From contig PXYT01000016.1 of the NCBI GenBank assembly GCA_003023725.1, positions 1 to 52,274 of the forward strand: 52,274 bases of DNA, in the 5' to 3' direction. The first letter of the stretch is position 1. Each line of letters begins with the position of its first letter. The notes beneath the pieces were generated by a model. The model made no database searches. It saw nothing but the letters and a program-made list of their open reading frames with translations, and had not been told where the DNA came from. Position numbers and translations under genes: made by a program. Below, piece by piece: positions 2,267 through 18,780 of the stretch. Origin of the DNA: Sulfobacillus benefaciens. GTDB taxonomy: Bacteria > Bacillota > Sulfobacillia > Sulfobacillales > Sulfobacillaceae.

Positions 2267-2893
2267 TTATTCCCCCATTGCTCGGTTTAAGCATTCCCAC
2301 CACAGAGCGGCGGAAAAAGATCCCGGATCAACATGCCCCTGACTGCGTTCGCCCAAATAGGCCGCCCGTCCGCGTTTAGCTATCAAGCTCCGTGTCGCTT
2401 CCGACCACTCACGGGCCGACGACGCCACGGTGTTCAACCGCTCGGAGAACGAAGGAGGGTCCCCTTTGATTAGTATATCGACCCCAACCCGCAGGACATC
2501 AATCATTGTTTTGTCGCCAATGCGGGCTTTGCCGCGATTCTCCATCGACGCAACGATCGCGTCAAGCCATGCAATTTGGGTTTCGGTGGTGCATGTGCCT
2601 TGCACGGGCAGCTTCTGGCTAGCCTGAACCATTGCCGAGCCCCACAGAGCTCCTGACGCGCCTCCCACCGTACTCAAAAGCGTCATCCCCGTTGTTTTGC
2701 TGAGTTCGAGCAAATTTTCCACCGGTGTTTTTGGAAGAGACCACAACTCACGGACTTTACTCAACCCCCGGTCCATATTGGTTCCATGATCCCCGTCCCC
2801 GATAGCACGATCGAGTTCGTTTAAGTCATCCAAATGGGCATGGACTTCTTGCCCAAAACAAATCCACCAACGCATAAATTGTTCAGCGTTCAT
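2267..2893 (-). CDS. dhaL: Dihydroxyacetone kinase ADP-binding subunit DhaL
   Basis: 208-residue all-helical subunit that holds ADP/ATP as a tightly bound cofactor, is rephosphorylated by DhaM and phosphorylates dihydroxyacetone bound on DhaK. The nucleotide/metal motif GDGDHGTNM lies near residue 32, and the glycine-rich TVGGASGALWGSAM segment follows around residues 75-90. Length is normal for the family. Its start overlaps the end of dhaK by 11 bp and its stop is one base before dhaM, so the three subunits are probably made in fixed ratio. Confidence 0.95.
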   Translation of the reverse strand: MNAEQFMRWWICFGQEVHAHLDDLNELDRAIGDGDHGTNMDRGLSKVRELWSLPKTPVENLLELSKTTGMTLLSTVGGASGALWGSAMVQASQKLPVQGTCTTETQIAWLDAIVASMENRGKARIGDKTMIDVLRVGVDILIKGDPPSFSERLNTVASSAREWSEATRSLIAKRGRAAYLGERSQGHVDPGSFSAALWWECLNRAMGE

Positions 2894-3896
2894 GCATCAC
2901 GCCCTGCCTCATCGCCGGCGTATCGCACGGAGCTTTGAGCCACCGTTCCAAATCATCACGCAATCGCAGCAAGGTGACTGAGGCACCGGCCATTTCCAAA
3001 GATGTCATGTATTCGCCCATCAAGGCAAAATTACAGGGTATATTGGCGTTTTGCAGCCACATGCTGACGTCCTTGGCCAAAATGGCCAGTTCCATAAGCG
3101 GGGTCGCTCCCATGCCATTGATGAGACAAGCTACCGAGTCACCCGCTTTGAGCTGGAGATCTTCGACAATGCGGCTGAGCACGTAGTCCGCCAAGTCCCG
3201 AGCAGGTTGGACGGGCTGGCGCCGGGTGCCCGGTTCCCCGTGGATGCCGATTCCCATCTCCATTTCATTCTCTGCCAGGGTAAAACTCGGCTGTCCGGCC
3301 GCAGGCGGTGTGCAAGGAGCCAAAGCAAACCCCATGGACCGCAGGTTTTGAATAGCGGTGTTGGCACCCCGGCTCACCGTAGTCAAATCGCAGCCGTCCT
3401 CCGCTAAAGCCCCAGCAATTTTGTGAACCAAAATGGTTCCCGCTATCCCACGGCGGCCGGTCGTGAAAAGCGAGTCCTCTACGGCCACATCGTCGTTGAC
3501 AATCACGGCCTCGGTGAGAATTCCTTCTGCACTCGCCATGTCCTTGGCAATTTCAAAGTTCATGACATCGCCCGTATAGTTTTTTATAATCAATAATACT
3601 CCCGCTCCGCGATCGGCTACCCGTATGCCTTCTAAAATCTGGTCCGGGGTCGGCGAAGTAAAAACCTCGCCCGCGACCGCCGCGTCCAGCATCCCAAATC
3701 CCACATACCCACTGTGAGCAGGCTCGTGACCCGATCCCCCTCCCGAGACAATGCCCACTTTACCCAAATCCTTCGGTCTGGCTCTGGTCATGACGCGGGT
3801 TTGCGGGATGCGTCGAAGATAGTCAGGAAACGACCACGCCAACCCGTCGAGCATATCATCAACCACGGCCTCGACACGATCCAGAAGTTTTTTCAA
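2883..3896 (-). CDS. dhaK: Dihydroxyacetone kinase substrate-binding subunit DhaK
   Basis: About 337 residues. DhaK binds dihydroxyacetone covalently as a hemiaminal on a histidine and presents it to DhaL. The motif [15 protein letters not shown] lies near residue 53, and the substrate-linking His is in GIGIHGEPG at about residue 219 (E. coli His218). The frame is open to 3917, but the TTG at 3894-3896 is the better start: AAGGAGG lies 9 bases upstream and the product then begins [16 protein letters not shown], as DhaK proteins usually do. It lies 24 bp after glpK. With dhaL and dhaM it forms a PEP-dependent, PTS-driven kinase, not the ATP-dependent single-chain type. Confidence 0.95.
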
Positions 3897-3920
3897 CCTT
3901 TCATCCCTCCTTATCAAGCC

Positions 3921-5423
3921 TCATTTATCCGGATCTAACCAGTTCATGGCCCTGCCGACCGCTTTCTTCCACCCCCGGTATAATCCCTCGCGAGTCTTTT
4001 CATCCATAGCCGGGGAAAACAGGCCGTCTGGGCGCCAAATCTTTTGCAAGGGATCCAGGCCGGCCCAAAACCCCACACCAAGTCCCGCCAGAAAGGCGGC
4101 TCCCATGGCTGTGGTTTCGTGAACCTTGGGGCGTTCCACGGGCAGTCCCAGAATGTCCGCTTGAAATTGGACGACAAATTCGTTGGCGATTGCCCCGCCA
4201 TCCACCCTCAAGGCTTTTGGCGGGGTTCCGCTCTCACGGATCATGGCCTCCAGCACATCCCGCGTCTGATAGCCAATGGACTCCAGGGCGGCCCGGACTA
4301 TATGGGCCCGGTTGCTTCCCCGGGTTAACCCGACAATGGCGCCTCTGGCATAACTGTCCCAGTAGGGAGTGCCCAGTCCGGCGAAGGCCGGAACCACATA
4401 GACTCCCTCGCTGCTGTCCACAGACAACGCCAAAGTCTCACTTTCTTGAGCACTGTCAATTAATTTTAATTCATCGCGCAACCACTGCACGACTGCTCCG
4501 GTAACAAAAATCGATCCTTCAATGGCATAGGTCATGTGGCCTTCCAGTCCCCAGGCAATGGTCGTAAGGATCCCATGGTCGCAGGACAGGGGTTGCTCTC
4601 CGGTGTTCATCAGAAGAAAAGAACCGGTGCCGTAGGTATTTTTCACGGTACCCCGGGCAAAACATCCCTGGCCGAATAAGGCCGCTTGCTGGTCTCCGGC
4701 TATGCCGGCAATGGGAATAGGGCGCCCAAACCAGTGTTCGGCGCTCTGCGCACAAACCCCGGACGAGTCCACCACAACAGGGCACATCGAGGTAGGCACC
4801 TCAAGCCAGGCTAAAAGGTCCTGATCCCACCTCAAATCATGAATGTTATACAGTAGTGTCCGCGATGCATTGGAATAGTCGCTCGCATGAAGCATGCCGT
4901 CCGTCAGCTTATAAATCAACCAGCTGTCAATGGTCCCAAACGCCAGGTGTCCTTGTTCGGCGAGGGTCCTGGCCCCGTCCACGTGATCTAGAATCCACGC
5001 AACCTTGGTACCCGAAAAATAGGGGTCAATGACCAGTCCCGTTTTCTCGTGAATAGCTGGCGCAAGACCTCTTTCTCGCAACTTATCGCAAATTCCGGCA
5101 GTTCTTCGGCACTGCCACACAATGGCATTATAGATCGGACGCCCCGTGCGTCTGTCCCACACCACCGTCGTTTCGCGCTGATTGGCCATGCCGATGGCTA
5201 CGATGTCCTTAAGCGGCGCTCCGGCTTCAAAAAGACAGTCTTGAACCGCCTGCCACTGGGAGCTCCAAATTTCTTCCGGATCATGTTCAACCCATCCGGG
5301 ACGGGGATAGATTTGGCGAAAGTCTTTCCGGCCCGTGGCAATCACATCGCCCTTGCGATCGAACAAAAGGGCGCGGCTTGACGTGGTTCCCTGATCCAGC
5401 GCAAGTACATACTGACCACTCAT
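3921..5423 (-). CDS. glpK: Glycerol kinase
   Basis: FGGY-family kinase of about 500 residues that converts glycerol and ATP to sn-glycerol-3-phosphate, the substrate of the GlpABC complex encoded upstream. The N-terminal phosphate-binding motif [15 protein letters not shown] is intact, as are [10 protein letters not shown], the glycerol-site stretch RETTVVWD and the C-terminal [11 protein letters not shown]. An earlier in-frame GTG at 5468 exists, but the ATG at 5421-5423 gives the normal [13 protein letters not shown] start and has AGGGGTG about 9 bases upstream. In low-GC Firmicutes GlpK is activated by HPr-dependent phosphorylation of a histidine; HPr is encoded just upstream, but I did not locate that residue with certainty. 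No glycerol facilitator gene is present. Confidence 0.96.
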
Positions 5424-5597
5424 GGGCTTCAACACCCCTGATATCCGGACCGCCTCAAAACCAGGCACCAGCGTACGCCTTTGATGTCAGACCATGGTCA
5501 GCGCCGGCCTAACGCCTGGCCGCACGGCCTTCAGAATTTTGTTGCTGCCGGCCCTTTTCGTTCTTTGGCTGTCATCCTTCTATTTTCGTTATTTTCG

Positions 5598-5873
5598 TTA
5601 TTCTTGTTCGCCATCCACTGTTAACAATTCCTGTAGTTCTTGTTCCAGCAACAGGACCCGATCCAACTCCCCGGTATCGTAATGCAGGGCTAAAACATCG
5701 CCCGATCCCGCACCCACGGTCAAGACCTGAAGGATGCTTTTGGCGTTGACGACCTTGCCGTGACAAAACAACTGAACTGGGAAAGGACACGCCGACAGGG
5801 TTTTGACCAATTGAGCCGCAGGGCGGGCATGCAGCCCTTCCGGCGACACGATTTTGTATTGTCTTTGAATCAT
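5598..5873 (-). CDS. ptsH: Phosphocarrier protein HPr
   Basis: About 91 residues. HPr receives phosphate from enzyme I on His15 and passes it to EIIA-type proteins, here most likely DhaM. His15 lies in EGLHARPA and Ser46, the site of HPr kinase in Firmicutes, lies in NAKSIL, so both regulatory positions match B. subtilis numbering. The open frame extends to 5936, but the ATG at 5871-5873 has a GGGGTGGGGAA ribosome site and starts at the usual point. Finding ptsH between glpP and glpK, and not beside sugar EII genes, suggests that its main client is the dihydroxyacetone kinase and perhaps GlpK. The 170 bp between it and glpK contain a duplicated TTTTCGTTA-type repeat but no gene. Confidence 0.93.
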   Translation of the reverse strand: MIQRQYKIVSPEGLHARPAAQLVKTLSACPFPVQLFCHGKVVNAKSILQVLTVGAGSGDVLALHYDTGELDRVLLLEQELQELLTVDGEQE

Positions 5874-5910
5874 TTCCCCACCCCTAAGGCATTCTGTGTC
5901 AGTTAAAAAA

Positions 5911-6483
5911 CTAGCCCTCCCGCCGAGATAGCGCAAAGAGATCCCGGGTGCTGGTCGACACGCTTACCGCCCCGGCTGCCAGCGCCATCTCCACCTGCTC
6001 GGCCGTGGTAATCAACCCTCCGGCAATCAAAGGGCGTGTAAGACGGGAAAACAAGATCCGGATAAGATTGGGCAAAATACCGGGCAACACTTCTACGGCA
6101 TCGGCCCCTTGGTGTTCGACCTGAGCAATTCCCGATTCCACCGACTGGCTGTCGATGAGGAAAATCCGCTGGATCGTCATCAACCCCAATTTTACGGCAT
6201 GATTCACGGTATGGCTATGGGTGGAGATAATCCCGTCAGGGGCGGCGAATTCGCGAAAGAACCGTAAGCCTTCGAAATCCCCGGTAATGCCTTTGACCAT
6301 ATCGATATGAACGAATACATGCCAGTGGCGCCTTTGCAATAACGCCACAGCCTCCGCCACCACATCCACCCGCCCCCCCAAAAGAAAAACCCATCGTCCT
6401 TGCCCGTCCCCCAGGGCATTCCACTGTTCCGGGTCCCTTATTGCCGGAATGACGGAGGGCATGAGCGACTTTTCAATCCGCAT
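5911..6483 (-). CDS. glpP: Glycerol uptake operon antiterminator GlpP
   Basis: 190-residue GlpP-family protein. In Bacillus, GlpP bound to glycerol-3-phosphate acts on leader RNA and prevents termination before glp genes. Family features seen here are the IPAIRD start, FVHIDMVKGI near residue 58, GIISTHS near residue 85, VEVLPGI near residue 130 and IAGGLITT near residue 153 of a TIM-barrel-like fold. It starts 3 bases after the glpC stop, with AAGGTGG upstream, and is followed by HPr. A hairpin terminator before glpA (10320-10361) is its probable target, which would make the operon self-inducing when glycerol-3-phosphate appears. Confidence 0.93.
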   Translation of the reverse strand: MRIEKSLMPSVIPAIRDPEQWNALGDGQGRWVFLLGGRVDVVAEAVALLQRRHWHVFVHIDMVKGITGDFEGLRFFREFAAPDGIISTHSHTVNHAVKLGLMTIQRIFLIDSQSVESGIAQVEHQGADAVEVLPGILPNLIRILFSRLTRPLIAGGLITTAEQVEMALAAGAVSVSTSTRDLFALSRREG

Positions 6484-6486
6484 GCT

Positions 6487-7659
6487 TTACACCACCTTAA
6501 CGTGTTCTTGAGCTTCCCGGTAGGCTTTATAAAGCCAGTACGCCGGATGACTCGCTTTCAAACCGGTCATGCCCTGCAAATGCAAAGCGCAGGTTCCGCT
6601 GTCCGTCATCACCCTGCCCTCATCTAATGCCAGCTGGCCCATTTCCCGGGCCAGCTCTTCGTGTTCTGCTTTAAACGCATACGATCCCGCGGCACCGCAG
6701 CAGGCCAGCATCAAAGGCTTGACGGTCCACCTGGCTCTTTGCCCAATTTGTTCCATCCATCCTGTTCCGCGAGACACCCGGGAACGGCAGGTTGTATGCA
6801 CATAATAAGGTAAATCCGGTTTGTCTGACGACAGCCGCTGCAAAAGATGCCAAAACTCTAAGGGTGCGTACTCCAAGGCAAACTCGGTGAAAGGCACAAC
6901 CTCGCACGATGCGGAGAGGTGCCAAAACCGAGGCCATTCCTCTCGCAAGGTACTGTCACAAGTGGCATTCAGAGTCAGCATCAAATCAACTGTGTCCCCG
7001 TTTGCACGCCGTAAACGCTCGGCCGTAGCGGAAGCAATCCGCCGTCCCAATTCCGCATTTCCGGCAGCATAGGCGGCGGCTCCGCAGCATGATCCGGCAC
7101 CGGGCATCACAATGCTCTCATAACCCCACGCCTCCAAAAGAGCGATGACCGCATCGAGGACGGGTCCATCAAAGGCCTCGGTATAGCAATCCCCATACAC
7201 CCCCACTCGCATGGATTTCTCCCGGACAAGGAGATCGTGGGTCACCTTGGCCGGACGGTTTGGAGAGGGCCAAGGCGTGCGCGTGCTTAACCCCAGAACT
7301 TTCGTCCATTTGCGAGGTACTCGGGTGATTTGCGGAAAGCGGGCAATCCAGTGAGGATGAGCCAAGAGATAATCACGCCACCGATAACGAGCCGGTTTGG
7401 CTTGCCGCCGCTTATGCTCGGCAATTAAATGGGCCACCGGAACTCCGACCGGGCACGCGTCCTCGCATAACTGACAAAAGGTGCAATCATCGACAAATTC
7501 ACTGGTTTGGCCCTCGGTCCGGCTGTCTTGGCTGTCTCGCCACCATTCCGGGCCCAAAACCTTGGGACCCGGAAAACGAAAATCTCTGGCATAAACTGGG
7601 CAAACACTCACACACGCCGAACAGTTGACACACGCATCCTCAAAATCAAAATCCCGCAT
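6487..7659 (-). CDS. glpC: Anaerobic-type glycerol-3-phosphate dehydrogenase subunit C
   Basis: 390-residue iron-sulfur subunit that passes electrons from GlpAB to the menaquinone pool. Two 4Fe-4S ferredoxin motifs lie at the N-terminus (CVNCSACVSVCP near residue 12 and CTFCQLCEDACPVG near residue 59). Two CCG-type cysteine-rich domains follow (GSCCGAAAYAAG near residue 191 and ACCGAAGSYAFK near residue 315), as in heterodisulfide reductase-like subunits. The ATG at 7657-7659 has AGGAGG 11 bases upstream and overlaps the end of glpB by 14 bp. It closes the glpABC trio and precedes glpP. Confidence 0.93.
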   Translation of the reverse strand: MRDFDFEDACVNCSACVSVCPVYARDFRFPGPKVLGPEWWRDSQDSRTEGQTSEFVDDCTFCQLCEDACPVGVPVAHLIAEHKRRQAKPARYRWRDYLLAHPHWIARFPQITRVPRKWTKVLGLSTRTPWPSPNRPAKVTHDLLVREKSMRVGVYGDCYTEAFDGPVLDAVIALLEAWGYESIVMPGAGSCCGAAAYAAGNAELGRRIASATAERLRRANGDTVDLMLTLNATCDSTLREEWPRFWHLSASCEVVPFTEFALEYAPLEFWHLLQRLSSDKPDLPYYVHTTCRSRVSRGTGWMEQIGQRARWTVKPLMLACCGAAGSYAFKAEHEELAREMGQLALDEGRVMTDSGTCALHLQGMTGLKASHPAYWLYKAYREAQEHVKVV

Positions 7660-8767
7660 GGGACATTAGGCCTCCTTTTCGCGGCACAGTCAAAATATTG
7701 AGACCTTGCTCCCGCAAGGCTTGATAGACCGTGGCCAGAATCATTGCGCCGCCGTTGCGGTCGCGGTCGGGATCCCAGCCGGATCTTTGCCGACCACAGG
7801 CGGACAAGGAGCCATTGGCTTCCGAGCCCCAGCGAAATACCGGCCCCCACCCCGTCTCCGCAGTGATTTGCCCCAGGGCCCGGTGTGTAATGGCTTCTTC
7901 AACCACTCCGTTGGGAAGCACTTTGATACCCCCTCCCAAAATTCCGCCTGTAGCCATCAAGACGTGATCGGCTCCCCAGCTTCGCCCGTCATCCAGATGA
8001 ATGCGGTGCTTGAGGTATTCGGTGACACTCCCGGATATCAAGGGCACGCCACGGTTTCTTAGCCATGCTTGCCACAAATCGCGAATGCGCATACCGCCCA
8101 AGGACGGCATGACCAAAGGATATTCGAAAACCGGACGACGTAAGTCGCGGCCGATTTCGCGCAAAATTTCCCCGGTACGGATACGGCCGATGACCTGCGG
8201 CAACAATAACGGCCATCCGGCCGGAACCCGCGGGTTAAGATCCTGCAGCAGCGTCTTCAGCCAAAACTTGCCCTCCGTCTGGTCGATAAAGGAGGCCCAA
8301 CGTACCGCGGTCCAACTGTCATCCCATCCCGGCGGGCGGGGAAGCCGCTGCCAGAAGGGACTGTGTCCTGTCGCTGCTTCAATGGCGCTGAGATGAATGT
8401 CTTGCAAGCTGTCCGGCAGACCTTCAAAGGCCACAATCCACAGGGGCCCCGGATCCGGAGTACAATATTGCCAGGTGGGACAAAGAAAAGTGGCTTTTAG
8501 GCTGCCGGTACAACTGAGGGTGAGAGCCGGTCCGAGCCGTGTCTCAATCCCCATGGACCCCCACAACCGGCTCAAGAGAGTCCACAAAGTCTGCCATTCT
8601 TCGGCATTTAAAGGCAAAAGTTCGGGATCCCCCCGGTCCATCACACCGCTCCACAAGGCCATTGTGCCTTCGTGGGCCGCAACCAGCCGGCATTCTTCTC
8701 CGTGCATGTTCAGTAATGATGCTGCCAACAGACCTGCGGGTCCTCGGCCGATCACCGTCCAGCTCAC
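7646..8767 (-). CDS. glpB: Anaerobic-type glycerol-3-phosphate dehydrogenase subunit B
   Basis: 373-residue flavoprotein-like subunit. A nucleotide-binding GRGPAGLLAASLL loop opens the protein, and an ATGGILGGG motif and a C-terminal NGGAMILATV segment agree with GlpB. It links the catalytic GlpA to the membrane-facing GlpC. The start is GTG at 8765-8767, overlapping the glpA stop as GTGA, with GAGGAA 8 bases upstream, so translation is coupled to glpA. GlpB is the least conserved of the three subunits, so the assignment leans partly on its place between glpA and glpC. Confidence 0.9.
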   Translation of the reverse strand: MSWTVIGRGPAGLLAASLLNMHGEECRLVAAHEGTMALWSGVMDRGDPELLPLNAEEWQTLWTLLSRLWGSMGIETRLGPALTLSCTGSLKATFLCPTWQYCTPDPGPLWIVAFEGLPDSLQDIHLSAIEAATGHSPFWQRLPRPPGWDDSWTAVRWASFIDQTEGKFWLKTLLQDLNPRVPAGWPLLLPQVIGRIRTGEILREIGRDLRRPVFEYPLVMPSLGGMRIRDLWQAWLRNRGVPLISGSVTEYLKHRIHLDDGRSWGADHVLMATGGILGGGIKVLPNGVVEEAITHRALGQITAETGWGPVFRWGSEANGSLSACGRQRSGWDPDRDRNGGAMILATVYQALREQGLNILTVPRKGGLMSHAGF

Positions 8768-10305
8768 GTTCGGTATTCCTCCTCGCTATCCTTTTCCGGT
8801 CTTGTAGCAATGTCCGCCACGCCCTTAGGCTCATCCCAAGATTCCCCCAAAGTTTGAAACCTTACGGCCTTCTGAAGTGCCCATTGCCGTGCATTAATGC
8901 CCAGGGCCGCCGCCTGCATCCCTTTTTCTCGTTCATGCCGAAAATGGCGTAACTGGCTGGCATAGTCTTCGCCTGGATTCTTCTGGCAGTACAGCGTCAC
9001 TGCCCGGTGCGCACAAACGGTTCCTTGACACGGTCCCATCGAAAACCAGGTTCCCGTTCTCCAATTGTCAAGAGAACCGTCCATGGCTTGCAATTGATGT
9101 CCTTTGACGCTTTCACACTCGCAATAGATCGTCTGGTCCCCGGGCTCTGGACTTATGGGTTGATGCAAATCCGGCTGAGGCGGACGCAGCGGCACACGAT
9201 CCGTGCGACATGGCGTATAAGCTCCTAGATACCGGCAAACATCATCTACGCAATGTTCCGCCATAAGCCGAAAGGTTGTCCATTTTCCACCCACGACCGA
9301 AAAAGCTCCCTCAGGTCCCTGACGCGTTTTGTGATCGATTACTTTGAAATCCCGGCTCACCTGCCTCGGATCCGAAGTGTTAGCGGTTCCGGCGTATAAA
9401 GGCCTGACCCCGGTAAATGCTCTTAAGACCCGCCAGTTTTCGATGCCGGGGACCATGTCCTTCCCTAACTGCCATAGTTTTATCACGTCGTCGATCGGCG
9501 GTTGGGGTGCATCAGGTTCATCCACCGCGATGTCGGTGGTACCCAGTATCGCCACTTCGCGGTGAGGCACGATAATATCACCGTCCCCGGGTTCCCGAAG
9601 CCGATTGACAACGGTTTTTATTCGCCTCTGGGCAAAAATAAGCATGAGCCCATAGGACAACTGCAAAGAAAGCTTATCCCCGATTAGTGCGGACACATTC
9701 TGGGCCCAAGGACCCGCTGCATTAATTAACACGTCCGCAGCCATTTCGCGTTGACCATCCGGGCCTTCGACGAGAACGCCACGGACTGTTCCTCCGTGGG
9801 TATTCACGCCGGCAAGCCGGGTATGAACCAGAACGTCTCCGCCAAGCAAACGAATATTTTGCTGCAGCAGCTGCAACAAACGAAAGCCTTCCAGAACCGC
9901 ATCAGGAACATAAAATGCCCGAAATGCTGCCAGGCTTTCACCTGTTGCCCGAGACAATGTGCCGAGGGCCTCGGCCCGGTAGGGAATACCCATCTGTCTC
10001 ATCCCTTGTTCCCAGCGAATTCGGTACGCCTCATCGCTTTCGTGAGTTTGAACGAAATACCCCCCGGTATCATCAATGGCAGCCGCAGCAATCCGTTTGA
10101 GAACCTGGTTTTCATGCCAACAATCCTCGGCAGCCACCGGATCCGTGACAGCGTAGCGAGCTCCGCTGTGAAGCAATCCGTGAAATCGTCCCGAGGTGCC
10201 GCTGCCTACCTCGCCTTGTTCAATGACGGTGACCCGAATGCCTCTCAAAACAAGATCCCAAGCAATTCCCAGACCAGTGGCACCCGCTCCCACGACGATA
10301 ACCAT
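8764..10305 (-). CDS. glpA: Anaerobic-type glycerol-3-phosphate dehydrogenase catalytic subunit A
   Basis: 513-residue FAD enzyme oxidising sn-glycerol-3-phosphate to dihydroxyacetone phosphate. The Rossmann motif VVGAGATGLGIAWDL starts at residue 4, followed by the family signature SGRFHGLLHSGARYAV. The C-terminal BFD-like [2Fe-2S] domain shows CECE near residue 397 and the GPCQGTVC pair, as in GlpA proper and unlike aerobic GlpD. Two ATGs lie 6 bp apart; GGAGGG directly abuts the first (10311) and stands 6 bases before the second, so I choose 10305. It is the first gene of the operon and its leader holds a terminator. It implies growth on glycerol or phosphodiesters with electrons going to quinone, including at low oxygen. 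Confidence 0.94.
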   Translation of the reverse strand: MVIVVGAGATGLGIAWDLVLRGIRVTVIEQGEVGSGTSGRFHGLLHSGARYAVTDPVAAEDCWHENQVLKRIAAAAIDDTGGYFVQTHESDEAYRIRWEQGMRQMGIPYRAEALGTLSRATGESLAAFRAFYVPDAVLEGFRLLQLLQQNIRLLGGDVLVHTRLAGVNTHGGTVRGVLVEGPDGQREMAADVLINAAGPWAQNVSALIGDKLSLQLSYGLMLIFAQRRIKTVVNRLREPGDGDIIVPHREVAILGTTDIAVDEPDAPQPPIDDVIKLWQLGKDMVPGIENWRVLRAFTGVRPLYAGTANTSDPRQVSRDFKVIDHKTRQGPEGAFSVVGGKWTTFRLMAEHCVDDVCRYLGAYTPCRTDRVPLRPPQPDLHQPISPEPGDQTIYCECESVKGHQLQAMDGSLDNWRTGTWFSMGPCQGTVCAHRAVTLYCQKNPGEDYASQLRHFRHEREKGMQAAALGINARQWALQKAVRFQTLGESWDEPKGVADIATRPEKDSEEEYRT

Positions 10306-10319
10306 CGCCATCCCTCCAC

Positions 10320-10361
10320 AAAAAAGAGCCCAACATCACCAAAACCGGTGTGTCAGGCTCT
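10320..10361 (-). terminator. Leader terminator, candidate GlpP target
   Basis: Read on the minus strand, AGAGCC pairs with GGCTCT, and inside it ACA/TGT and CACC/GGTG pair around a GGTTTT loop. A run of six U follows at once and then the GGAGGG of glpA. This is a transcription attenuator placed between promoter and first gene, as in the GlpP-controlled leaders of Bacillus. GlpP is encoded in the same operon. That GlpP acts here is inferred. Confidence 0.75.
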
Positions 10362-10396
10362 CCATATCTCTGCCCGTACGGCAACCTTACCAGGTC

Positions 10397-10425
10397 ATCA
10401 TATAAATTAAATTTTCTCATAGTAT
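10397..10425 (-). promoter_or_regulatory. Possible glpA operon promoter
   Basis: TATGAT on the minus strand (10402-10397) in an AT-rich stretch, with ATACTA 17 bp upstream as a weak -35. A start near 10390 would give a leader of about 85 bases that contains the attenuator. The -35 match is poor, so this is tentative. Confidence 0.3.
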
Positions 10426-10729
10426 GAAGGAAGCGGAGTCTAATGTAAAGGAATTGCGTAAATGATTTCTCACGAGTTAAGCGACATCCAAGAAATCTGG
10501 CCACAAAGGCATGCGACTACCACTGAAGGGTTTTTGAGCACATAGTTCACCACTCAACATCTTGACATCCCTGGTTCATGGATTGACATCGGTCCTTTTC
10601 AGGCCTGCCGGTGAATTCCCCCCGTTTTGCCTCTTCGCGACCTGGCTCCAGGGATGCCAAGCTGAGCGAAAGCAGCTTTCCGCTTGGCCATGCAGAGAGT
10701 ATGATAAGGAGAAAAAGGAGTGGAAAGGC

Positions 10730-12424
10730 GTGCGCTACCAAGCCCAGGTCTTGGCGCCCGGAACGGCTCAAGGGCCTTGTTTCCTGACTTCGGATCCTCA
10801 TATTGCGCAGATGGAAAAAAAGCAGGAAGACTGGCGAGCGGCCAGGCTGCAGGCTGTAAAAGCTCTCACTCAAATGCAAGAAGAATTACAGGACAAGGCA
10901 AGCAAAGATATTGTGCAAGCTCAAATACTCATGCTGGAAGACCCCGAGTGGACTTCGCGGATTGAAGCGCTGGTGGCGTCCAATTCCCCCGCAAATGCCA
11001 TTATCGAGTCCGCCGAAGAATTTGCGGCTTCGCTGGAACAACTGACCGATCCCTATTTGCAGCAACGGGCTCGCGATATCCGGGACGTCGCTGGGTTATG
11101 GTGCCGTTTTCTGAGAGAAAAGGCCCTTTCGCAACCGCCTGGCGGATCCATTGTCATCACCAAGACGCTGACGGTACACGATGTGGTCCATTGGGCCGAG
11201 ATTGGAGTCCCGGGTATCGTGTGCGAGCTGGGGACCCCATTAATGCATGCCTCCCTTGTCGCTCAAAATCTGGGGATTCCCGTTGTGGCACTTCCCCAGG
11301 CCCTGTCTCTCTTCGAAGCCATGGACGGCAGCGAGGTTCTCGTTGATGGCGACGCCGGTTCTGTGTTCATCAATGAGACAGAGCAAGGGAACCAACGGTC
11401 TGTGGCCCCGGAAACTGTTCCTAAAACCCGTTTACGTCTTTCATGGAAGGGACAAAGGCTGCAAATTTTTGCGAATGTTTCTTCGGTGGCGGAAGCCGCC
11501 CGTAGCCACGCCTTTGATGCCGAGGGTATCGGTTTGGTGCGTACGGAGTTCCTATTGGAAAGCGCCGGACATCTACTCGGCTTGGAAGAGCAAACGGCCC
11601 TTTATCGCGATATTCTCCGCCAAAGTCCGGGCCCCACAATCTTCCGGACATTCGATCTCGGGTCCGACAAAGCGTTATCCTTTTGGCCCATAGAAACCCA
11701 CGAACCCAACCCGGCTTTAGGAACGAGAGGTGTGCGCCTCTATTATCTTTATCCGGAATTGCTGCGCACCCAATTAACCGCTCTCGCTATGGCAGGTCAA
11801 GGACCCGGCGGCGTGTCGGTGATGTTCCCTATGGTTAAAGATCTTGAGGACTGGCAACATTGCCGCCGTGTGGCGAGTGATGTCCTGAGCGAATTAGGGT
11901 TGCCGCCGTTCTCCCTTCACTTGGGCGTAATGCTGGAAGTGCCTTCTTTGGGATTTCTCCTACCCGAACTGGCCGCAAATCACGCGGAATTTGTCTCCAT
12001 CGGCAGCAATGACCTCTATCAATACTTTTCGGCCACGGACCGGGAACGGTCAACCCCGTCCCGGCCCCAGGTCGATTTGCCAAAGCCCTCAATCTCCGAC
12101 ACCTCCCCAGGTGAACGTCACAACATTTCTTCCGCTGATTTTGCTTTGGCTCGTTTCCTGGCCTATATTAGCGAACAGGCCGGTGCCACCGGCCTGCCCC
12201 TCAGCGTATGCGGACAGTTGGCCACCCACAATCGCTGGGCTTTGTTGTTCACCGCTCTGAAAATGTTTCGCCTGAGCGTGCCCGCACCGGCCATTCCCCC
12301 GCTCAAGGCGTATCTCTTTGAATCTTTCCGCGATCTGCCTGAATTGGAAAGCGAAGCCGCAGAGGCCTTGTCCTCATGGTTGTTGTTCGCCCGGTGGATG
12401 GAGCCGGACTTACCTGGTTCTTGA
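10730..12424 (+). CDS. ptsI: Phosphoenolpyruvate-protein phosphotransferase (PTS enzyme I)
   Basis: About 564 residues; passes phosphate from PEP to HPr. The phosphate-carrying histidine is His173 in GTPLMHASLVAQNLGIP, in the place of the usual GGxTSHxAI motif. The PEP-binding half shows RTFDLGSDKAL, GTRGVRLYYLYPELLRTQL, EVPS, SIGSNDLYQY and the Cys-containing SVCGQLATH. The motifs depart from those of typical sugar-PTS enzymes, but all core residues I looked for are present. The frame opens at 10562, but the GTG at 10730 has AAGGAG 9 bases upstream and fits the family N-terminus. It is divergent from the glp operon and completes the relay EI > HPr > DhaM. No sugar EII is in the window. Confidence 0.93.
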   Translation: MRYQAQVLAPGTAQGPCFLTSDPHIAQMEKKQEDWRAARLQAVKALTQMQEELQDKASKDIVQAQILMLEDPEWTSRIEALVASNSPANAIIESAEEFAASLEQLTDPYLQQRARDIRDVAGLWCRFLREKALSQPPGGSIVITKTLTVHDVVHWAEIGVPGIVCELGTPLMHASLVAQNLGIPVVALPQALSLFEAMDGSEVLVDGDAGSVFINETEQGNQRSVAPETVPKTRLRLSWKGQRLQIFANVSSVAEAARSHAFDAEGIGLVRTEFLLESAGHLLGLEEQTALYRDILRQSPGPTIFRTFDLGSDKALSFWPIETHEPNPALGTRGVRLYYLYPELLRTQLTALAMAGQGPGGVSVMFPMVKDLEDWQHCRRVASDVLSELGLPPFSLHLGVMLEVPSLGFLLPELAANHAEFVSIGSNDLYQYFSATDRERSTPSRPQVDLPKPSISDTSPGERHNISSADFALARFLAYISEQAGATGLPLSVCGQLATHNRWALLFTALKMFRLSVPAPAIPPLKAYLFESFRDLPELESEAAEALSSWLLFARWMEPDLPGS

Positions 12425-12472: not shown

Positions 12473-13300
12473 TTAGCCCTTTACGCTACCCGCCGTGAGC
12501 CCGGATTCGATCCGTTGCTGTAAGAACAAGACAATCAGAGCGATGGGCAACGACGCCACCACCACACCTGCATAAATCTGCCCGTAATGCACGTAATAAG
12601 CGTTGCGGAAATTCACTAACGCCAGCGGCACCGTGTCCATATTGGGGCTTTGAATAAAGGACAGAGCAAACAGAAAATCATTCCACGACAGCAAAAACCC
12701 CAAAATGGCCGCGGTGAAGATCCCCGGCAATGCAATCGGGGCAAACACTTTGAGTATGGTTTGGCGGATCGAGGCCCCGTCAACCATGGCCGCTTCTTCA
12801 ATGTCCACCGGAATTTGACCGAAAAATGCCGTTAAAATCCAGGTGGTAATGGGAAGTGCCAGAATAAGGTAGGGGATGACCAAACTCTGGTAGGTGTTTA
12901 GCCAGTGCAAATGGCGAAACACCAAGTATAGCGGTCCAACCATGGCAATTTGGGGGAAAAAGGAAACCAGCAGGACAAATCCCAAAATGAGTGCTTTCCC
13001 TTTGATGGGCATCCGCGCTAAACCGTAAGCCGCCATCGACCCCAGAATGACGGACACGATAGTGGTGAGACCTGCCACCAGCATACTGTTAAGCAATGGA
13101 CGCAAGAAATTCTCCACCGCAAAGATAGCCTCATAGTGGACAAACGTCCATTGCACAGGCAGCATGCCCGTCGTCGGCTGGTTCAGTGCAACACTTGACT
13201 CCATTGAGGATTTGAATACCCAGTAAAACGGGAATAACGAATAAAGAATGATCACCGCCACTAGGACATAAAATCCTGTGCGTCCAAACCACGTTCTCAT
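12473..13300 (-). CDS. Carbohydrate ABC transporter permease (MalG type)
   Basis: 275-residue inner-membrane permease with about six transmembrane helices, starting near residues 8-30 with FYVLVAVIILYSLFPFYWVF. The EAA motif that contacts the ATPase reads EEAAMVDGASIRQTI near residue 168, followed by LPGIFTAAILGFLLSWNDF, the usual MalG/UgpE signature. Its start overlaps the upstream permease by 4 bp. Third gene of the minus-strand importer operon; no ATPase gene follows, so it probably uses a shared MsmX-type ATPase encoded elsewhere. Substrate not readable from sequence; the divergent debranching-type enzyme suggests an oligosaccharide. Confidence 0.93.
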   Translation of the reverse strand: MRTWFGRTGFYVLVAVIILYSLFPFYWVFKSSMESSVALNQPTTGMLPVQWTFVHYEAIFAVENFLRPLLNSMLVAGLTTIVSVILGSMAAYGLARMPIKGKALILGFVLLVSFFPQIAMVGPLYLVFRHLHWLNTYQSLVIPYLILALPITTWILTAFFGQIPVDIEEAAMVDGASIRQTILKVFAPIALPGIFTAAILGFLLSWNDFLFALSFIQSPNMDTVPLALVNFRNAYYVHYGQIYAGVVVASLPIALIVLFLQQRIESGLTAGSVKG

Positions 13301-14244
13301 GTCACGAATCCCTCCCGTTGCCGCAGGATGCGGACATAAATTCCGGCCAGCAACAGTGCCAGAATGGTGATGACCACCGCCACCGCGGCGCCGTAGCCGA
13401 AATTCAGCGACACCATGTATTTATACCAGTTATAGTAGGCGATGACTTCAGTACTCTGTCCTGGCCCTCCCCCCGTCATTACGAAGATGGTGTCGAACAC
13501 CAACATGGCGCTTAACGTACGGAAAATCAGAGCCACTAAAATGGCCGGGCGCAAGAGGGGAAGAGTCAGGGACCAAAAAGCCTGCCAGCTTGAAGCCCCG
13601 TCAATTTTGGCGCTTTCATAGATTTCTTGGGGAATGGTTTGAAGACCGGCCAATAGAAGAAGAGCAATAAAGGGCGTATTTTTCCACATATCGCTCAAGA
13701 TAATCGGCACCCAGGCCAAAACCGGCGAATTGAACCAAACCGTTTGCGCCCCCGGCAGATGCAAAGCGCTCAGGGCGAAATCCACGAATCCAGAACGAAT
13801 ATCAAAAAACATTTTCCACAACAACGCTGATACAGCGGTGGGGATGGCCCAAGGGATCAGAATCGAGGCCCGTACCAAACCTCGTGCGCGAAATTTCCGG
13901 TTGACCACCAGTGCCAGGATCATTCCCGCGACAAATTCCAGAGTGACGGAAATGACGACAAATATTCCCGTGTGCAGCAAATCACCCCAGAAAGCCGGGT
14001 CCACGACCAGACTATGATAATTTTGCATCCCGACAAAATGCTGCGTACCGGGTTCTGTCGCCACGTCGAACCGTGACGACAGAACCAGATTATATAATAA
14101 TGGGTAAATGGCTACCAAGGCCAGCGCAATCAGCGCGGGTAAGACCAGCAGATATCCGACTCGCCTGCGCCTTGCCAGGTATGATGCGCCGCGGCGGCTT
14201 CGCGGTAACTGATCCCGGGGTCTTGTCGCCAGTTTAGCTGCCAT
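13297..14244 (-). CDS. Carbohydrate ABC transporter permease (MalF/UgpA type)
   Basis: 315 residues. A basic N-terminus is followed by a first membrane helix (YLLVLPALIALALVAIYPLL) and five more. The EAA loop reads YESAKIDGASSWQAFWSLTL near residue 220, typical of the first permease of a sugar importer. It overlaps the binding-protein gene by 11 bp upstream and the second permease by 4 bp downstream, so the three genes form one operon. Together with 12473-13300 it should form the transmembrane channel. Confidence 0.93.
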   Translation of the reverse strand: MAAKLATRPRDQLPRSRRGASYLARRRRVGYLLVLPALIALALVAIYPLLYNLVLSSRFDVATEPGTQHFVGMQNYHSLVVDPAFWGDLLHTGIFVVISVTLEFVAGMILALVVNRKFRARGLVRASILIPWAIPTAVSALLWKMFFDIRSGFVDFALSALHLPGAQTVWFNSPVLAWVPIILSDMWKNTPFIALLLLAGLQTIPQEIYESAKIDGASSWQAFWSLTLPLLRPAILVALIFRTLSAMLVFDTIFVMTGGGPGQSTEVIAYYNWYKYMVSLNFGYGAAVAVVITILALLLAGIYVRILRQREGFVT

Positions 14245-15508
14245 GGCCGCTCACAATGGCCTGAACGGCTTTTTGGGCTTGATCCAGGGCTTGTTTAGGG
14301 GTCAATTGACCGGAGTATGTGGCGGACAATGCCTCCTGAATCCGGGCCGATATTCTGGGGTATAACGGGGTGACCGGACGCGGTGTGGCATCAGCATAAA
14401 CGGCCTCTTCCTGTTTGAACCAGGGAGCCTTTTTAAGCAGCGCCGGTGTGTAAGCATCGGTCCGGGCTGGCGGATCCCCCGAAATTAGGGCTCGTTGCGT
14501 CATCGTCTTGGCCGAAGTCAAAAAGCTAACCAGTTCCCATGCTTGCTTAGGATATTTGGTATTCTTGTTGATCACTAAGTCGTCTCCCCCCAAAGACGCC
14601 GTCGGCTTGCCACCTTGAGTGGGAGGAGGCACAAATCCCACTTTATTGATCACCGCCGATCCTTTTTGTTCGGCGAGAGGATATAAATAGGGCCAGTTGG
14701 TGGCAAATACGGCATCGCCCGATAAAAAGGCCTGTTGCACATTGCCTTCTTCCCATCCTGTTACCGCTTTCGGCGACAAACCGGTCTTAATGGCGTTATC
14801 CAGCCATGTTAGGGCCCGGATATTTTGCGGAGAATTTAAAACCGGCTGTCCCTTGGAATTCAAAAACGACCCGCCAAATCCGCCCGAGACATCCTGAAAA
14901 ACCGTGACGGCTCCCTCGTATTTGTTGCCTTCAAAAGCCAGTCCGATCAGCTTGGGGTTTTTGGCCATCGCTGCCTTGGCATCGGAGACCAGTTGGGTAA
15001 ACGTTTTAGGCGGACTCTTGACCAAATCGGTGCGGTAATACACTCCTTCCACGTTAATGAACCAGGGAATGGCGTAGAGTTTTCCTTTGTATTCGCCCGC
15101 CTTGACCATGCCGGGATAAAAACGGCTCATATTGGGGTGAAATTGATTCAAAGGCATGATCCACTTGGCCGCCGCAAACGTGGGCGGCCAAATGACGTCG
15201 GAGGTGATAACGTCGGGCGTGGCCGACCCGGAGTTTAGATCCGTGACCAGCGTTTGATAAGCGCTATTCGATGACGCCGAGAGCGTCTCGATTTGCACAT
15301 GGATATGTGGATGTAATTTTTCGAATTCTTTGACCGCTTGTTGCGTGGCTTGGGCCTCAGTCCCAAGACCCTGGGTCGCAAACACTAAATTGACGGTTTT
15401 GGATCCCGAGCTCTGTGCGGCCGAACCACATCCTGCTAAAGCCCCCATTAAAATCGCGCCGCTTAAAATACCCATTCCAGCGCGTTTTGCTCGCGTTCGA
15501 CTCACCAT
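14234..15508 (-). CDS. Extracellular sugar-binding lipoprotein of ABC importer
   Basis: About 424 residues. It starts with a lipoprotein signal: basic MVSRTRAKRAGMG, a hydrophobic core and the lipobox LAGC (Cys near residue 27), so the mature protein is lipid-anchored outside the membrane. The rest is the cluster of solute-binding proteins related to MalE/UgpB (for example DVITSDVIWPPTFAAAKWIMPL and YAIPWFINVEGVYYRTDL). The ATG at 15506-15508 has GGGAGGAA upstream; the longer frame to 15613 lacks one. First gene of the importer operon; it is divergent from the LacI-glycosidase gene and shares its 200-bp control region, so that repressor probably governs it. Confidence 0.93.
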   Translation of the reverse strand: MVSRTRAKRAGMGILSGAILMGALAGCGSAAQSSGSKTVNLVFATQGLGTEAQATQQAVKEFEKLHPHIHVQIETLSASSNSAYQTLVTDLNSGSATPDVITSDVIWPPTFAAAKWIMPLNQFHPNMSRFYPGMVKAGEYKGKLYAIPWFINVEGVYYRTDLVKSPPKTFTQLVSDAKAAMAKNPKLIGLAFEGNKYEGAVTVFQDVSGGFGGSFLNSKGQPVLNSPQNIRALTWLDNAIKTGLSPKAVTGWEEGNVQQAFLSGDAVFATNWPYLYPLAEQKGSAVINKVGFVPPPTQGGKPTASLGGDDLVINKNTKYPKQAWELVSFLTSAKTMTQRALISGDPPARTDAYTPALLKKAPWFKQEEAVYADATPRPVTPLYPRISARIQEALSATYSGQLTPKQALDQAQKAVQAIVSGHGS

Positions 15509-15535
15509 ACTTTTTCCTCCCTCTGTCGACTCGTT

Positions 15536-15559
15536 GGCATTGCCATGCCTGTCTAGACA
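15536..15559. promoter_or_regulatory. Dyads in the importer leader (GGCAT/ATGCC and TGTCTAGACA)
   Basis: A 5-bp stem GGCAT-TGCC-ATGCC (15536-15549) runs into the 10-bp palindrome TGTCTAGACA (15550-15559), 27-50 bp upstream of the binding-protein start. Possible regulatory site for the minus-strand operon; the binder is unknown. Confidence 0.35.
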
Positions 15560-15654
15560 AGAATATTTTGTGTTTTCAGTGATTTTTTGGTTTCTCAATT
15601 TGTGTTCTGTCATTAATGTTTTGCGAATTTCTCGTATTGTGTCATACTTTCAGA

Positions 15655-15660: not shown

Positions 15661-15673
15661 TCAATCGTTTAAG

Positions 15674-15685
15674 TGAAACGTTTCA
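15674..15685. promoter_or_regulatory. LacI-family operator TGAAACGTTTCA
   Basis: A perfect 12-bp palindrome with the central CG step typical of LacI/CcpA-family operators. It lies between the divergent importer operon and the gene for a LacI-type protein, 24 bp before that gene's ATG. Autoregulation and control of the importer are inferred. Confidence 0.75.
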
Positions 15686-15708: not shown

Positions 15709-18700
15709 ATGTCGCAAACGTTTCGCCGTGCCCGCATTGGCGATGTGGCCAAATTAGCCGGAGTCTCCACTGCCACGGTCTCGTACGTTCTAAATAACCG
15801 GGGACATTTTTCCACCGAGACAATCGAGAAAGTTCGAGAAGCTGCCAGGGCTTTGAACTATTCTCCGAATATCCGCGGACGGATATTGGTTAGGGGGCTT
15901 TCCGAATCCATCGGTATTCTTCTTCCCCCATTGCGTAAGGGACAATCTCCCGGGATCTTTGCCGCCCTCATGCCCGGGTTGATTACCGCCTGCCAGGAAA
16001 GCAATTATCAAATCATCGTCTTGTCCGGATCCGGCCTCGACAGTTCCGATTATTTGCAACAAGTTGGACTGTCCGGGCGTGCCGACGGTCTGATTTTGCT
16101 GAACGGTCCCGACCTGGCGCAAAACCGGGAAATTTTGTCCCGGCACCGCATTCCTTTTGTGGTGTTTGGCGATTCCCACCACGACGATTTTTCGTATGAT
16201 GTGGATCTCGAAACAGCGGCCCGCATGGCCACCATGTACTTAATCGGCCTGGGGCATCGCCACATTACCTTCCTGGCATCAGATTCCCTGTCCTGGCAAA
16301 CTCAGCGTTACCGAATGGCTTTCGAAGAAACGATGGCCGAATTCCACCTGACCCCGGAATATCCTTATCGGCATTCGCCTGAAGACTGCCCGAACGGAAC
16401 AAGTCTAGGGGATTATCAGCGAGCGTATGACGTCTTAACCCAGCCGAATCCGCCCACCGCGCTGTTGGTCACTACCAGCTACGGAGCCCGGGAAGTCGTC
16501 CGCTGCGCTCAGGATCTGGGTATGCATGTGCCAAGGCGGCTATCCGTCATGAGTCTCGAACCCACCTGGGAGTCCCAGGACACCCATCCGTCTCTTTCCA
16601 CCGTGGAAATCAACCTCAGGGAGGCCGGATACCAATTAGCCCGGATGCTGATATCACTCATTCAGGGAAAACACGTCACGAGTCAGCGGGTGACTCCCCA
16701 GCTGAACATTCGCCAGTCAACCGGCGTCCCTGCGGTGTTCCAGACTCCGACGACTGACATCAGTGAACCGGTTCTCAAATCAGGATCAGCCTTTGCCCTT
16801 TTTTCCACCCAGGGCCATGTAGAGATCCATTCCAAACGGCACGGAATTTATAGTTTTGACACGCGCCTGCTGTCCGTGTACCAGTGGCGAATTCAGGACG
16901 AAGTGTTAAATCCCTTGGCTTTCGATGTCAGAGAAAATGTTCTGATTATCCGGTATGCGGCTTCCCAGGACGGGTCCACGCTGGTTCTTAAACGGCATCT
17001 CACTCTCTATGATGACCATTTGCACGATCAGTGGGCCTGGGAATATTACGGATCGCCCACGTCCTGGGCCCTATCTGTGTCCATGGATGCGGATTTCACC
17101 GACATCTTCGAACTTCGGGGAATCTCGAAGGCGGAAGCAGGGCTGAAATCAAAATTCTTCAAGGATGGACAGTATGTGATCGAATACATGGGCATCGATA
17201 AGGTGACTCGTCAAGTGCGCATGGCAGCCAACCGGAATCCCCTTGAAGCGCAGGAGGGAAAATGGCAATGGCGGATTGATCCTTGGGAAAAACAAGGAGA
17301 ACTGACCGTGAGCATCCGTTGGATCAATCCGGTAAAGATCGTGGTCTCCAATGCCGCCGTTTCCACTAGGCGTCAATCATCACTACCGTCTCCTCCGTCT
17401 TTGGTCTTTTCCTTCCAGGATTATCCCTGGAATCAGGTTATCCGTCGCGCTTATCAAGACTATCACCAGCTTCTCACCGACTTTGGCCAGGGGCCTGTTC
17501 CCATGGCGGGTCTGCCTTGGTTTGCCACTTTTTTTGGACGCGATGCTATTATCGCCTCGTATCAATACTTGCTGTGGAATCCTCAAATAGCCGTCAACAC
17601 GTTGTATACGCTGGCACAGTGGCAAGGGCAGGAAGAAGATCCGGATCACGAGGAAGAAGCGGGAAAAATGGTACACGAAGTGCGTTTGGGCGAAATGGCC
17701 CAGAGTGGCCAGGTGCCATTCTCACGGTACTACGGCTCGGTGGACGTCACGCCGCTATTCTTAATTCTCCTCGTGGAGACTTGGAAGCGTACGGGCGATG
17801 ACCAACTTATAGCGGATTTGTGGCCTGAAGCCGAAAAAGCTCTGTCCTGGCTGATAGCATCCCAGGACGTGCATAGCGGATTATTTTCCTTTAAAAATCA
17901 CGGAAACCAAGGCTTAATCATCCAGTCTTGGAAAGATTCGTTTGACTCGATGGTTTACGGCAGTGGTGAGCATGCTCAGCCACCTCTAGCTGTCAGTGAG
18001 GTTCAGGGTTATGCCTATCGGGCTCTGAGCCTGTGTGCGCAGTATTATCTTTACATAGGTCGCGAAGACAAGGCGCGAGAGTTGAAAAACCGGGCCACCC
18101 ATCTCAAACGCCACTTCAATAAACGCTATTGGGTCGAAGAGGGATCATATTATGCTCTCGCCCTTGATTCCTCGGGACGCCCTCTCGATGTCTTGACCTC
18201 GGATACCGGCCAATGCCTATGGTCCGGTATCGTGCGAACGTCGCGCATCCGGGCTCTCGCTCACACCATCATGACGCCACAGTTGTTTTCCGGATGGGGA
18301 ATCCGCACCTTGTCTTCCGACGCCGTCACCTATGACCCATACAGCTATCACCGGGGCAGCGTCTGGCCCCACGACACGGCTTTAATCGCCAAAGGGCTGG
18401 CGCAGTCGGGCATGTGGAACGAAGCTCGCGTTTTGGCGCGAAGCCTCTTGGCCGCAGCTTCCCATTTCCCCTATTACCGCCTGCCAGAATTATTTTCAGG
18501 CGAGCACTCCACGTCTGTCCCCTACCCGTATAAGGGCGCGTGCAGTCCTCAAGCTTGGGCGGCGGGAGCGCCTTTGTTGCTTCTTCAGATCATACTGGGA
18601 ATGGACATTGACGCCACTCGGCACCTCATTACTCTCCGCCCTGAGCCGGAGGGGTCGTTGGGTTCTTTTTCCATTCACAATATTCCCTTGACTGGCGAGG

Positions 18701-18780
18701 AATTCGTGTCGGTAGAGGCCAATTCCAAGGGGGTTGTGATTGATCATGTTCCAGATCACTGGACCGTGAAAAAGGGGTGA
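15709..18780 (+). CDS. Fusion of LacI-family repressor and glycogen-debranching-type glycosidase
   Basis: One continuous 1023-residue frame. Residues 8-60 are a LacI DNA-binding helix-turn-helix and hinge (IGDVAKLAGVSTATVSYVLN); about 65-343 form the periplasmic-binding-like sensor domain. After a linker (344-358) residues 359-545 match the N-terminal domain of bacterial debranching enzymes (HGIYSFDTRLLSVYQWRI). Residues 565-965 match the amylo-alpha-1,6-glucosidase catalytic barrel, with LPWFATFFGRDAII (603), WKDSFDS (741), EVQGYAYRAL (764), HRGSVWPHDTALIAKGL (881) and SPQAWAAGA (946). No Met lies between residues 281 and 458 and I see no internal ribosome site, so the enzyme half is not obviously made alone. 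The ATG follows GGAGGCATCCT. A cytosolic enzyme able to bind its own operator, and perhaps to sense its own substrate, is inferred. Confidence 0.93.
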   Translation: MSQTFRRARIGDVAKLAGVSTATVSYVLNNRGHFSTETIEKVREAARALNYSPNIRGRILVRGLSESIGILLPPLRKGQSPGIFAALMPGLITACQESNYQIIVLSGSGLDSSDYLQQVGLSGRADGLILLNGPDLAQNREILSRHRIPFVVFGDSHHDDFSYDVDLETAARMATMYLIGLGHRHITFLASDSLSWQTQRYRMAFEETMAEFHLTPEYPYRHSPEDCPNGTSLGDYQRAYDVLTQPNPPTALLVTTSYGAREVVRCAQDLGMHVPRRLSVMSLEPTWESQDTHPSLSTVEINLREAGYQLARMLISLIQGKHVTSQRVTPQLNIRQSTGVPAVFQTPTTDISEPVLKSGSAFALFSTQGHVEIHSKRHGIYSFDTRLLSVYQWRIQDEVLNPLAFDVRENVLIIRYAASQDGSTLVLKRHLTLYDDHLHDQWAWEYYGSPTSWALSVSMDADFTDIFELRGISKAEAGLKSKFFKDGQYVIEYMGIDKVTRQVRMAANRNPLEAQEGKWQWRIDPWEKQGELTVSIRWINPVKIVVSNAAVSTRRQSSLPSPPSLVFSFQDYPWNQVIRRAYQDYHQLLTDFGQGPVPMAGLPWFATFFGRDAIIASYQYLLWNPQIAVNTLYTLAQWQGQEEDPDHEEEAGKMVHEVRLGEMAQSGQVPFSRYYGSVDVTPLFLILLVETWKRTGDDQLIADLWPEAEKALSWLIASQDVHSGLFSFKNHGNQGLIIQSWKDSFDSMVYGSGEHAQPPLAVSEVQGYAYRALSLCAQYYLYIGREDKARELKNRATHLKRHFNKRYWVEEGSYYALALDSSGRPLDVLTSDTGQCLWSGIVRTSRIRALAHTIMTPQLFSGWGIRTLSSDAVTYDPYSYHRGSVWPHDTALIAKGLAQSGMWNEARVLARSLLAAASHFPYYRLPELFSGEHSTSVPYPYKGACSPQAWAAGAPLLLLQIILGMDIDATRHLITLRPEPEGSLGSFSIHNIPLTGEEFVSVEANSKGVVIDHVPDHWTVKKG
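15716..15723. promoter_or_regulatory. Second AAACGTTT core inside the fusion gene
   Basis: AAACGTTT lies in codons 3-5 of the gene, centred 40 bp from the main operator, close to four helical turns. It could let a repressor dimer pair loop or bind side by side. It may also be chance. Confidence 0.35.

Follow-up and report, generated by a model that had tools for sequence, protein, structure and literature searches.

The window, a 52,274-nucleotide stretch of a Sulfobacillus benefaciens contig (PXYT01000016.1), carries at 15709-18780 on the forward strand a single open frame that is translated without interruption from an ATG start into a protein of 1023 aa, with GGAGG about 8 nt 5' of the ATG. 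In the Pfam domain search, in which all matches exceeded the curated cut-offs, the protein showed LacI (10-54), Peripla_BP_3 (177-338), GDE_N_bis (356-524) and then an (alpha/alpha)6 glycosidase region matched by MGH1-like_GH (681-918) and GDE_C (674-953), which is the domain order that the first-pass annotation had predicted from the letters of the sequence. The frame and the Pfam domains also confirmed its claim that a LacI protein continues in frame through a 15-residue linker into a debranching-type enzyme. The enzyme half was found as the sole copy in the window's genome. The features of the locus are shown in Table 1.

Table 1. Features of the fusion locus in the window, with the evidence for each.
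Feature	Position	Strand	Evidence or remark
ABC importer permease, MalG-like	12473..13300	-	MalG/GlcU-like NCBIfam matches; adjoins fusion in relatives
ABC importer permease, MalF-like	13297..14244	-	BPD_transp_1; adjoins fusion in relatives
Divergent sugar-binding lipoprotein of ABC importer	14234..15613	-	SBP_bac_1 E 7e-47; likely start 15508
Predicted tandem LacI-type operator TCAATCGTTTAAGTGAAACGTTTCA	15661..15685	+	two palindromes, centres 13 bp apart
Fused LacI repressor - debranching-type glycosidase	15709..18780	+	1023 aa; frame, Pfam, orthologues
LacI helix-turn-helix, residues 10-54	15736..15870	+	PF00356 E 7e-17
LacI effector-binding core, about residues 63-340	15895..16728	+	PF13377 E 2e-27
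Linker, residues 341-355	16729..16773	+	stretch between Pfam domains
Enzyme N-domain GDE_N_bis, residues 356-524	16774..17280	+	PF14742 E 5e-24
(alpha/alpha)6 catalytic domain, about residues 574-964	17428..18600	+	Pfam; 7vma fold match
Presumed acid D743	17935-17937	+	invariance in alignments
Presumed base E927	18487-18489	+	invariance in alignments

The nearest solved relative of the binding protein encoded divergently from the fusion gene was the trehalose/maltose-binding protein 1eu8 (E 2e-61). Genes resembling malE, malF and malG adjoin the fusion in most loci of the order with enough contig, in divergent orientation in the window's clade and on the same strand, downstream, in most other genera. 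Elsewhere, genes of the GH15 glucodextranase and glucoamylase types and one for a second (alpha/alpha)6 enzyme also neighbour the fusion. In four genomes (L066, L069, L070 and L073), the last gene of the fusion operon, past the importer genes, encodes a second, free-standing (alpha/alpha)6 enzyme (734-749 aa), and the two such enzymes that were examined gave an MGH1-like_GH match without GDE_N_bis. In the window itself, positions 2883-12424 hold a glycerol/dihydroxyacetone cluster encoding DhaK, glycerol kinase, GlpC- and GlpB-like proteins and a FAD glycerol-3-phosphate dehydrogenase-like protein, and a gene for an EI-type PEP phosphotransferase (10562-12424) adjoins the sugar importer genes.

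The predicted operator lies just 5' of the fusion gene, in the region common to the divergent importer. Both the gene map and the tandem operator bear out the earlier proposal that the fusion gene faces a sugar importer across a common operator region; the extent then assigned to the operator (15674-15685) was too short, since the element is a longer, tandem pair. Tandem palindromes spaced 13 bp centre to centre were observed upstream of 14 fusion loci, with the centre of the first palindrome 24-54 bp before the annotated start, and 10 of these 14 conform to the strict consensus TNAANCGNTTNANTNAANCGNTTNA. It occurs once in the window (15661-15685) and was absent from 100 shuffles of the window, even with one mismatch. 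In the whole-genome pattern scan, the near-identical pattern gave one zero-mismatch site and no second good operator was found in the window's genome, indicating that control by this single-copy operator is local; a wider regulon was rejected for the same reason. In family f2 and the second paralogue groups, one site stands in place of the tandem. A consensus promoter scan gave no clear promoter overlapping the tandem operator, and its position relative to both promoters was judged by inspection.

By its fold and its helix-turn-helix (HTH), the window protein is classed as a LacI-type repressor rather than as a proven sugar sensor. An N-terminal HTH with hinge (PF00356), a periplasmic-binding-type core (PF13377) with fold matches to PurR, RbsR and CcpA, and a predicted palindromic operator near the regulated gene were all found, and the HTH signature positions were invariant in 20 aligned fusions. 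Foldseek matches of the AlphaFold model of the fusion protein (mean pLDDT 78.5, pTM 0.66) included LacI-family repressors. The usual Arg/Asp/Asp effector contacts, which are common in LacI/GalR proteins but not strictly defining, with CcpA-type members differing in ligand, were absent from the window protein and its clade. In the HMM alignment with PurR, compared at these three contact positions, Y201, S257 and E284 of the window protein replace PurR R196, D248 and D275, and all three contacts are also replaced in the same-clade sequences G002, G006, G007a, G003a and G004. Beyond the window's clade, most fusions retain the three contacts, as do the unfused LacI neighbours. One or more of them have been lost in some of the remaining fusions, with Gly at position 275 in G017, G001a and G034 and further deviations at effector-contact positions in G009a and the G010b/G019b pair. 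The earlier proposal that the chain could sense sugar through its LacI domain is doubtful for the window protein, because its three canonical contacts are replaced. The accompanying trigger-enzyme proposal, in which the substrate state of the enzyme half would alter regulator activity, is hypothetical.

For the enzyme half, 7vma was the only solved protein that matched over the whole length by sequence, with about 32% identity, and the model of the fusion protein matched it with Z 44.5 over 604 residues. This structure is the amylo-alpha-1,6-glucosidase of Thermococcus gammatolerans, for which debranching activity has been measured (PMC9142091). As in archaeal-type debranching enzymes, GDE_N_bis and GDE_C cover the full length of the enzyme half, and the two presumed catalytic carboxylates, D743 in a WKDS motif and E927 in an LPEL motif, are present, as they are in 7vma. 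Both were invariant in the 20 fusions and also in a set of 11 enzymes, of which ten are free-standing. In the glucosidase domain of the Candida glabrata debranching enzyme the catalytic pair is D1241/E1492 (PMC4837477), and by analogy D743 is presumed to be the acid and E927 the base. The best explanation of these matches is that the enzyme half is a predicted intracellular alpha-glucan glycosidase of the alpha-1,6 debranching type.

No match to the glycogen phosphorylase family was found in the window's genome, and on this ground classical glycogen breakdown was rejected as the context; CBM48 was found in one protein of the genome. From the fold, the transporter and the neighbouring genes, we infer that the substrate would be imported alpha-glucosides rather than stored glycogen.

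The fusion was present in 21 of the 154 genomes of the class, in 10 genera and four families, with 25 copies in which a single frame spans the two halves, a few being clipped by contig ends. Of the order's 42 genomes, 18 carry a fusion that is intact or limited by a contig end, and G005 carries a copy frameshifted in the LacI core; the profile search of the whole class added G495, G523 and G524. Two fusions each were found in G003, G007, G010 and G019. The earlier reservation that relatives might always have the two halves as separate genes was thus not borne out, as relatives carry the same fusion. Identity to the window protein falls as low as 37%, indicating that the fusion is old. In close pairs, dN/dS was at most about 0.2 in both LacI domains, the linker and both enzyme domains, indicating purifying selection on every region; for the HTH it ranged from about 0.02 to 0.2 across pairs, and the linker was 94-100% identical in most close pairs.

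Outside the class, single-sequence searches that could miss a strongly diverged LacI half gave no fusion in two other phyla, that of a Nocardioides MAG (396 genomes, 139 with the enzyme) and that of a Truepera MAG (111 genomes, 66 with the enzyme), and none among 398 genomes sampled from the window's own phylum. Since the enzyme is widespread and the fusion was seen only within the class, the fusion looks like a lineage-specific invention. Two variant copies were observed. In G005, a complete genome of the window's genus, the frameshift splits the LacI core and leaves the enzyme frame open (L063, 9775-10617 and 7601-9871 on the reverse strand). In G003, one fusion copy (L060, 8509-11463) is about 40 residues shorter (985 aa) than its near twin in G004, and the other fusion of this genome is its paralogue.

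An unfused version was found in nine loci, in which lacI immediately precedes a co-directional enzyme gene, with a gap of 3 to about 180 bp, and most of these loci also have the importer genes adjoining. In five of them (G026, G028, G024, G325 and G009b) a LacI-type palindrome was found between lacI and the enzyme gene, so that lacI can sit outside the regulated unit there; the palindrome is CCGAAAACGTTTTGG or CCGAAACGTTTCGG, at 7379-7461 of L046 and in the same place in L047, L052, L078 and L049. Fusion thus seems to bring a repressor that lay outside the regulated unit into it, under the enzyme's operator.

In the enzyme tree, the fused proteins formed two clades, a larger one with G495 and all fusions of the order, and a smaller one with G523 and G524 that adjoins the unfused G521, where lacI, malE, malF, malG and the enzyme gene form one run with lacI and the enzyme gene at opposite ends. 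Constraining all fusions to one clade was 57 log units worse (p-AU 0.0009), for a grouping picked after inspection of the tree, and a single origin of all fusions was rejected on this tree; the LacI tree alone does not force two origins. Two independent fusions are favoured from the phylogeny, and one fusion followed by fission is possible, because the grouping was seen before the test and the LacI tree is not decisive.

There are few repressor-enzyme fusions, of which PutA is the one usually cited. It represses both its own gene and the transporter gene putP (PMC5293562). The window protein shares with PutA a DNA-binding domain and an enzyme with a predicted intact active site in one chain, with the repressor domain N-terminal to the enzyme and with autogenous control of its own gene and a transporter gene predicted, and both the operator and the synteny fit such control. 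By homology it lies outside the PutA family, since no ribbon-helix-helix (RHH) or proline/P5C dehydrogenase domains were found in the fusion protein with Pfam. PutA has an RHH domain where the fusion has LacI, lacks a separate effector domain, acts on proline rather than sugar, and switches by flavin redox and membrane binding. The fusion belongs to the known class of repressor-enzyme fusions, with LacI in the place of the RHH domain.

LacI is the best-studied repressor family. With its members, such as PurR and CcpA, the fusion shares a complete HTH, hinge and periplasmic-binding-type core, a AAACGTTT-type operator and a local regulon; the members stop after the core, whereas the fusion continues with a 670-residue enzyme and, in the window's clade, has the usual effector contacts replaced. 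Two domains only were described in a 2014 survey of the family (PMC4052901), and no prior description of the fusion was found in the open-access literature; the architecture may well be listed in protein databases. The T. gammatolerans enzyme shares GDE_N_bis, the (alpha/alpha)6 domain over the full length and the WKDS and LPEL motifs, but is free-standing, without a DNA-binding part. In BzdR, an XRE HTH is joined to an enzyme-type, shikimate-kinase-like domain (PMC3602430); there the kinase-like domain is the ligand sensor and catalysis is thought to be lost, in contrast to the invariant presumed catalytic acids and the separate LacI core of the fusion.

The observed architecture, the conservation of domains, catalytic sites and operator, the synteny and the unfused counterparts are consistent with the fusion being, probably, a PutA-like autogenous local repressor-enzyme of an alpha-glucoside uptake locus, in which we infer DNA binding, repression, induction, hydrolysis and oligomer state. 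The LacI half would bind the tandem operator before its own gene, in the region common to the divergent importer genes, and would hold down both the fusion gene and the importer genes. Entry of substrate would relieve repression, importer and enzyme would be made together, and the enzyme half would hydrolyse the imported oligosaccharide. Because repressor and enzyme are one chain, each new enzyme would also be a new repressor, giving a negative loop with 1:1 stoichiometry.

It is quite possible that the chain is instead two independent machines on one string, co-produced 1:1 with no signalling between enzyme and repressor and with the core sensing its own ligand; the oligomer state of the enzyme would perhaps also change, to a dimer. 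This explanation overlaps with the PutA-like one, because only the coupling differs. The existence of unfused versions with the same gene order is consistent with it, as is the fact that, beyond the window's clade, the core of most fusions retains most of the Arg/Asp/Asp contacts. However, the linker is nearly invariant among close relatives, the contacts are replaced in the window's clade, and the fusion has been retained over long divergence and was probably arrived at twice, suggesting more than the chance loss of a stop codon.

The replaced contacts are also relevant to a second explanation, that the LacI core in the window's clade no longer senses and serves as a scaffold or a constitutive autorepressor that would only keep enzyme and importer at a low, steady level. 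We consider this unlikely: Y, S and E stand at the R196, D248 and D275 positions, with similar changes in five sister sequences, but purifying selection on the core continues in this clade (dN/dS 0.07-0.2), and the comparison covered three contact positions, so that another ligand or pocket may serve. For this core, either the ligand has changed, or sensing has been lost, or sensing has passed to the enzyme half. The last of these is a speculative and rather doubtful variant of the PutA-like scheme, in which sensing in the window's Sulfobacillus clade has shifted from the LacI core to the glycosidase and substrate in the active site would free the repressor. Such a shift would have been caught part-way, since sister lineages retain the LacI pocket; if true, the result would be a LacI repressor with an enzyme as its sensor.

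Separation of the halves during or after translation, by a protease acting on the linker or by an internal start, so that the fusion exists at the gene level only, is improbable. The open enzyme frame behind the frameshifted LacI core of G005 would suit it, but this is a single genome, and the linker is short and conserved. In agreement with the earlier observation at the junction, no internal start with a ribosome site is conserved there, as the candidates fall in differing alignment columns, and an internal start yielding free enzyme was excluded on this basis. That two adjacent genes were joined by an error of assembly or frame is hardly credible: lacI and the enzyme gene do adjoin on the same strand in unfused relatives, but the identical in-frame join is present in about 20 other genomes, complete ones included. 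A sequencing error near 16735-16785 had been named as a risk; no stop or frameshift was found in this stretch, and 19 other full-length aligned copies, complete genomes among them, cross the junction in frame, which excludes an artefact or hidden stop.

The fusion has been kept across four bacterial families, apparently arose twice, and has unfused counterparts that share its gene order. Since fused and unfused relatives coexist, the benefit of fusing a repressor to its enzyme can be tested by comparison, and the loss of the effector contacts in one clade allows a test of a possible transfer of sensing from regulator to fused enzyme. Two further long frames were observed, a 1139-aa frame in G487 with the enzyme in C-terminal position (L093, 5377-8793) and a 952-aa frame in G056 with LacI in C-terminal position (L051, 7696-10554), each of which may be another fusion or a GC-rich read-through.
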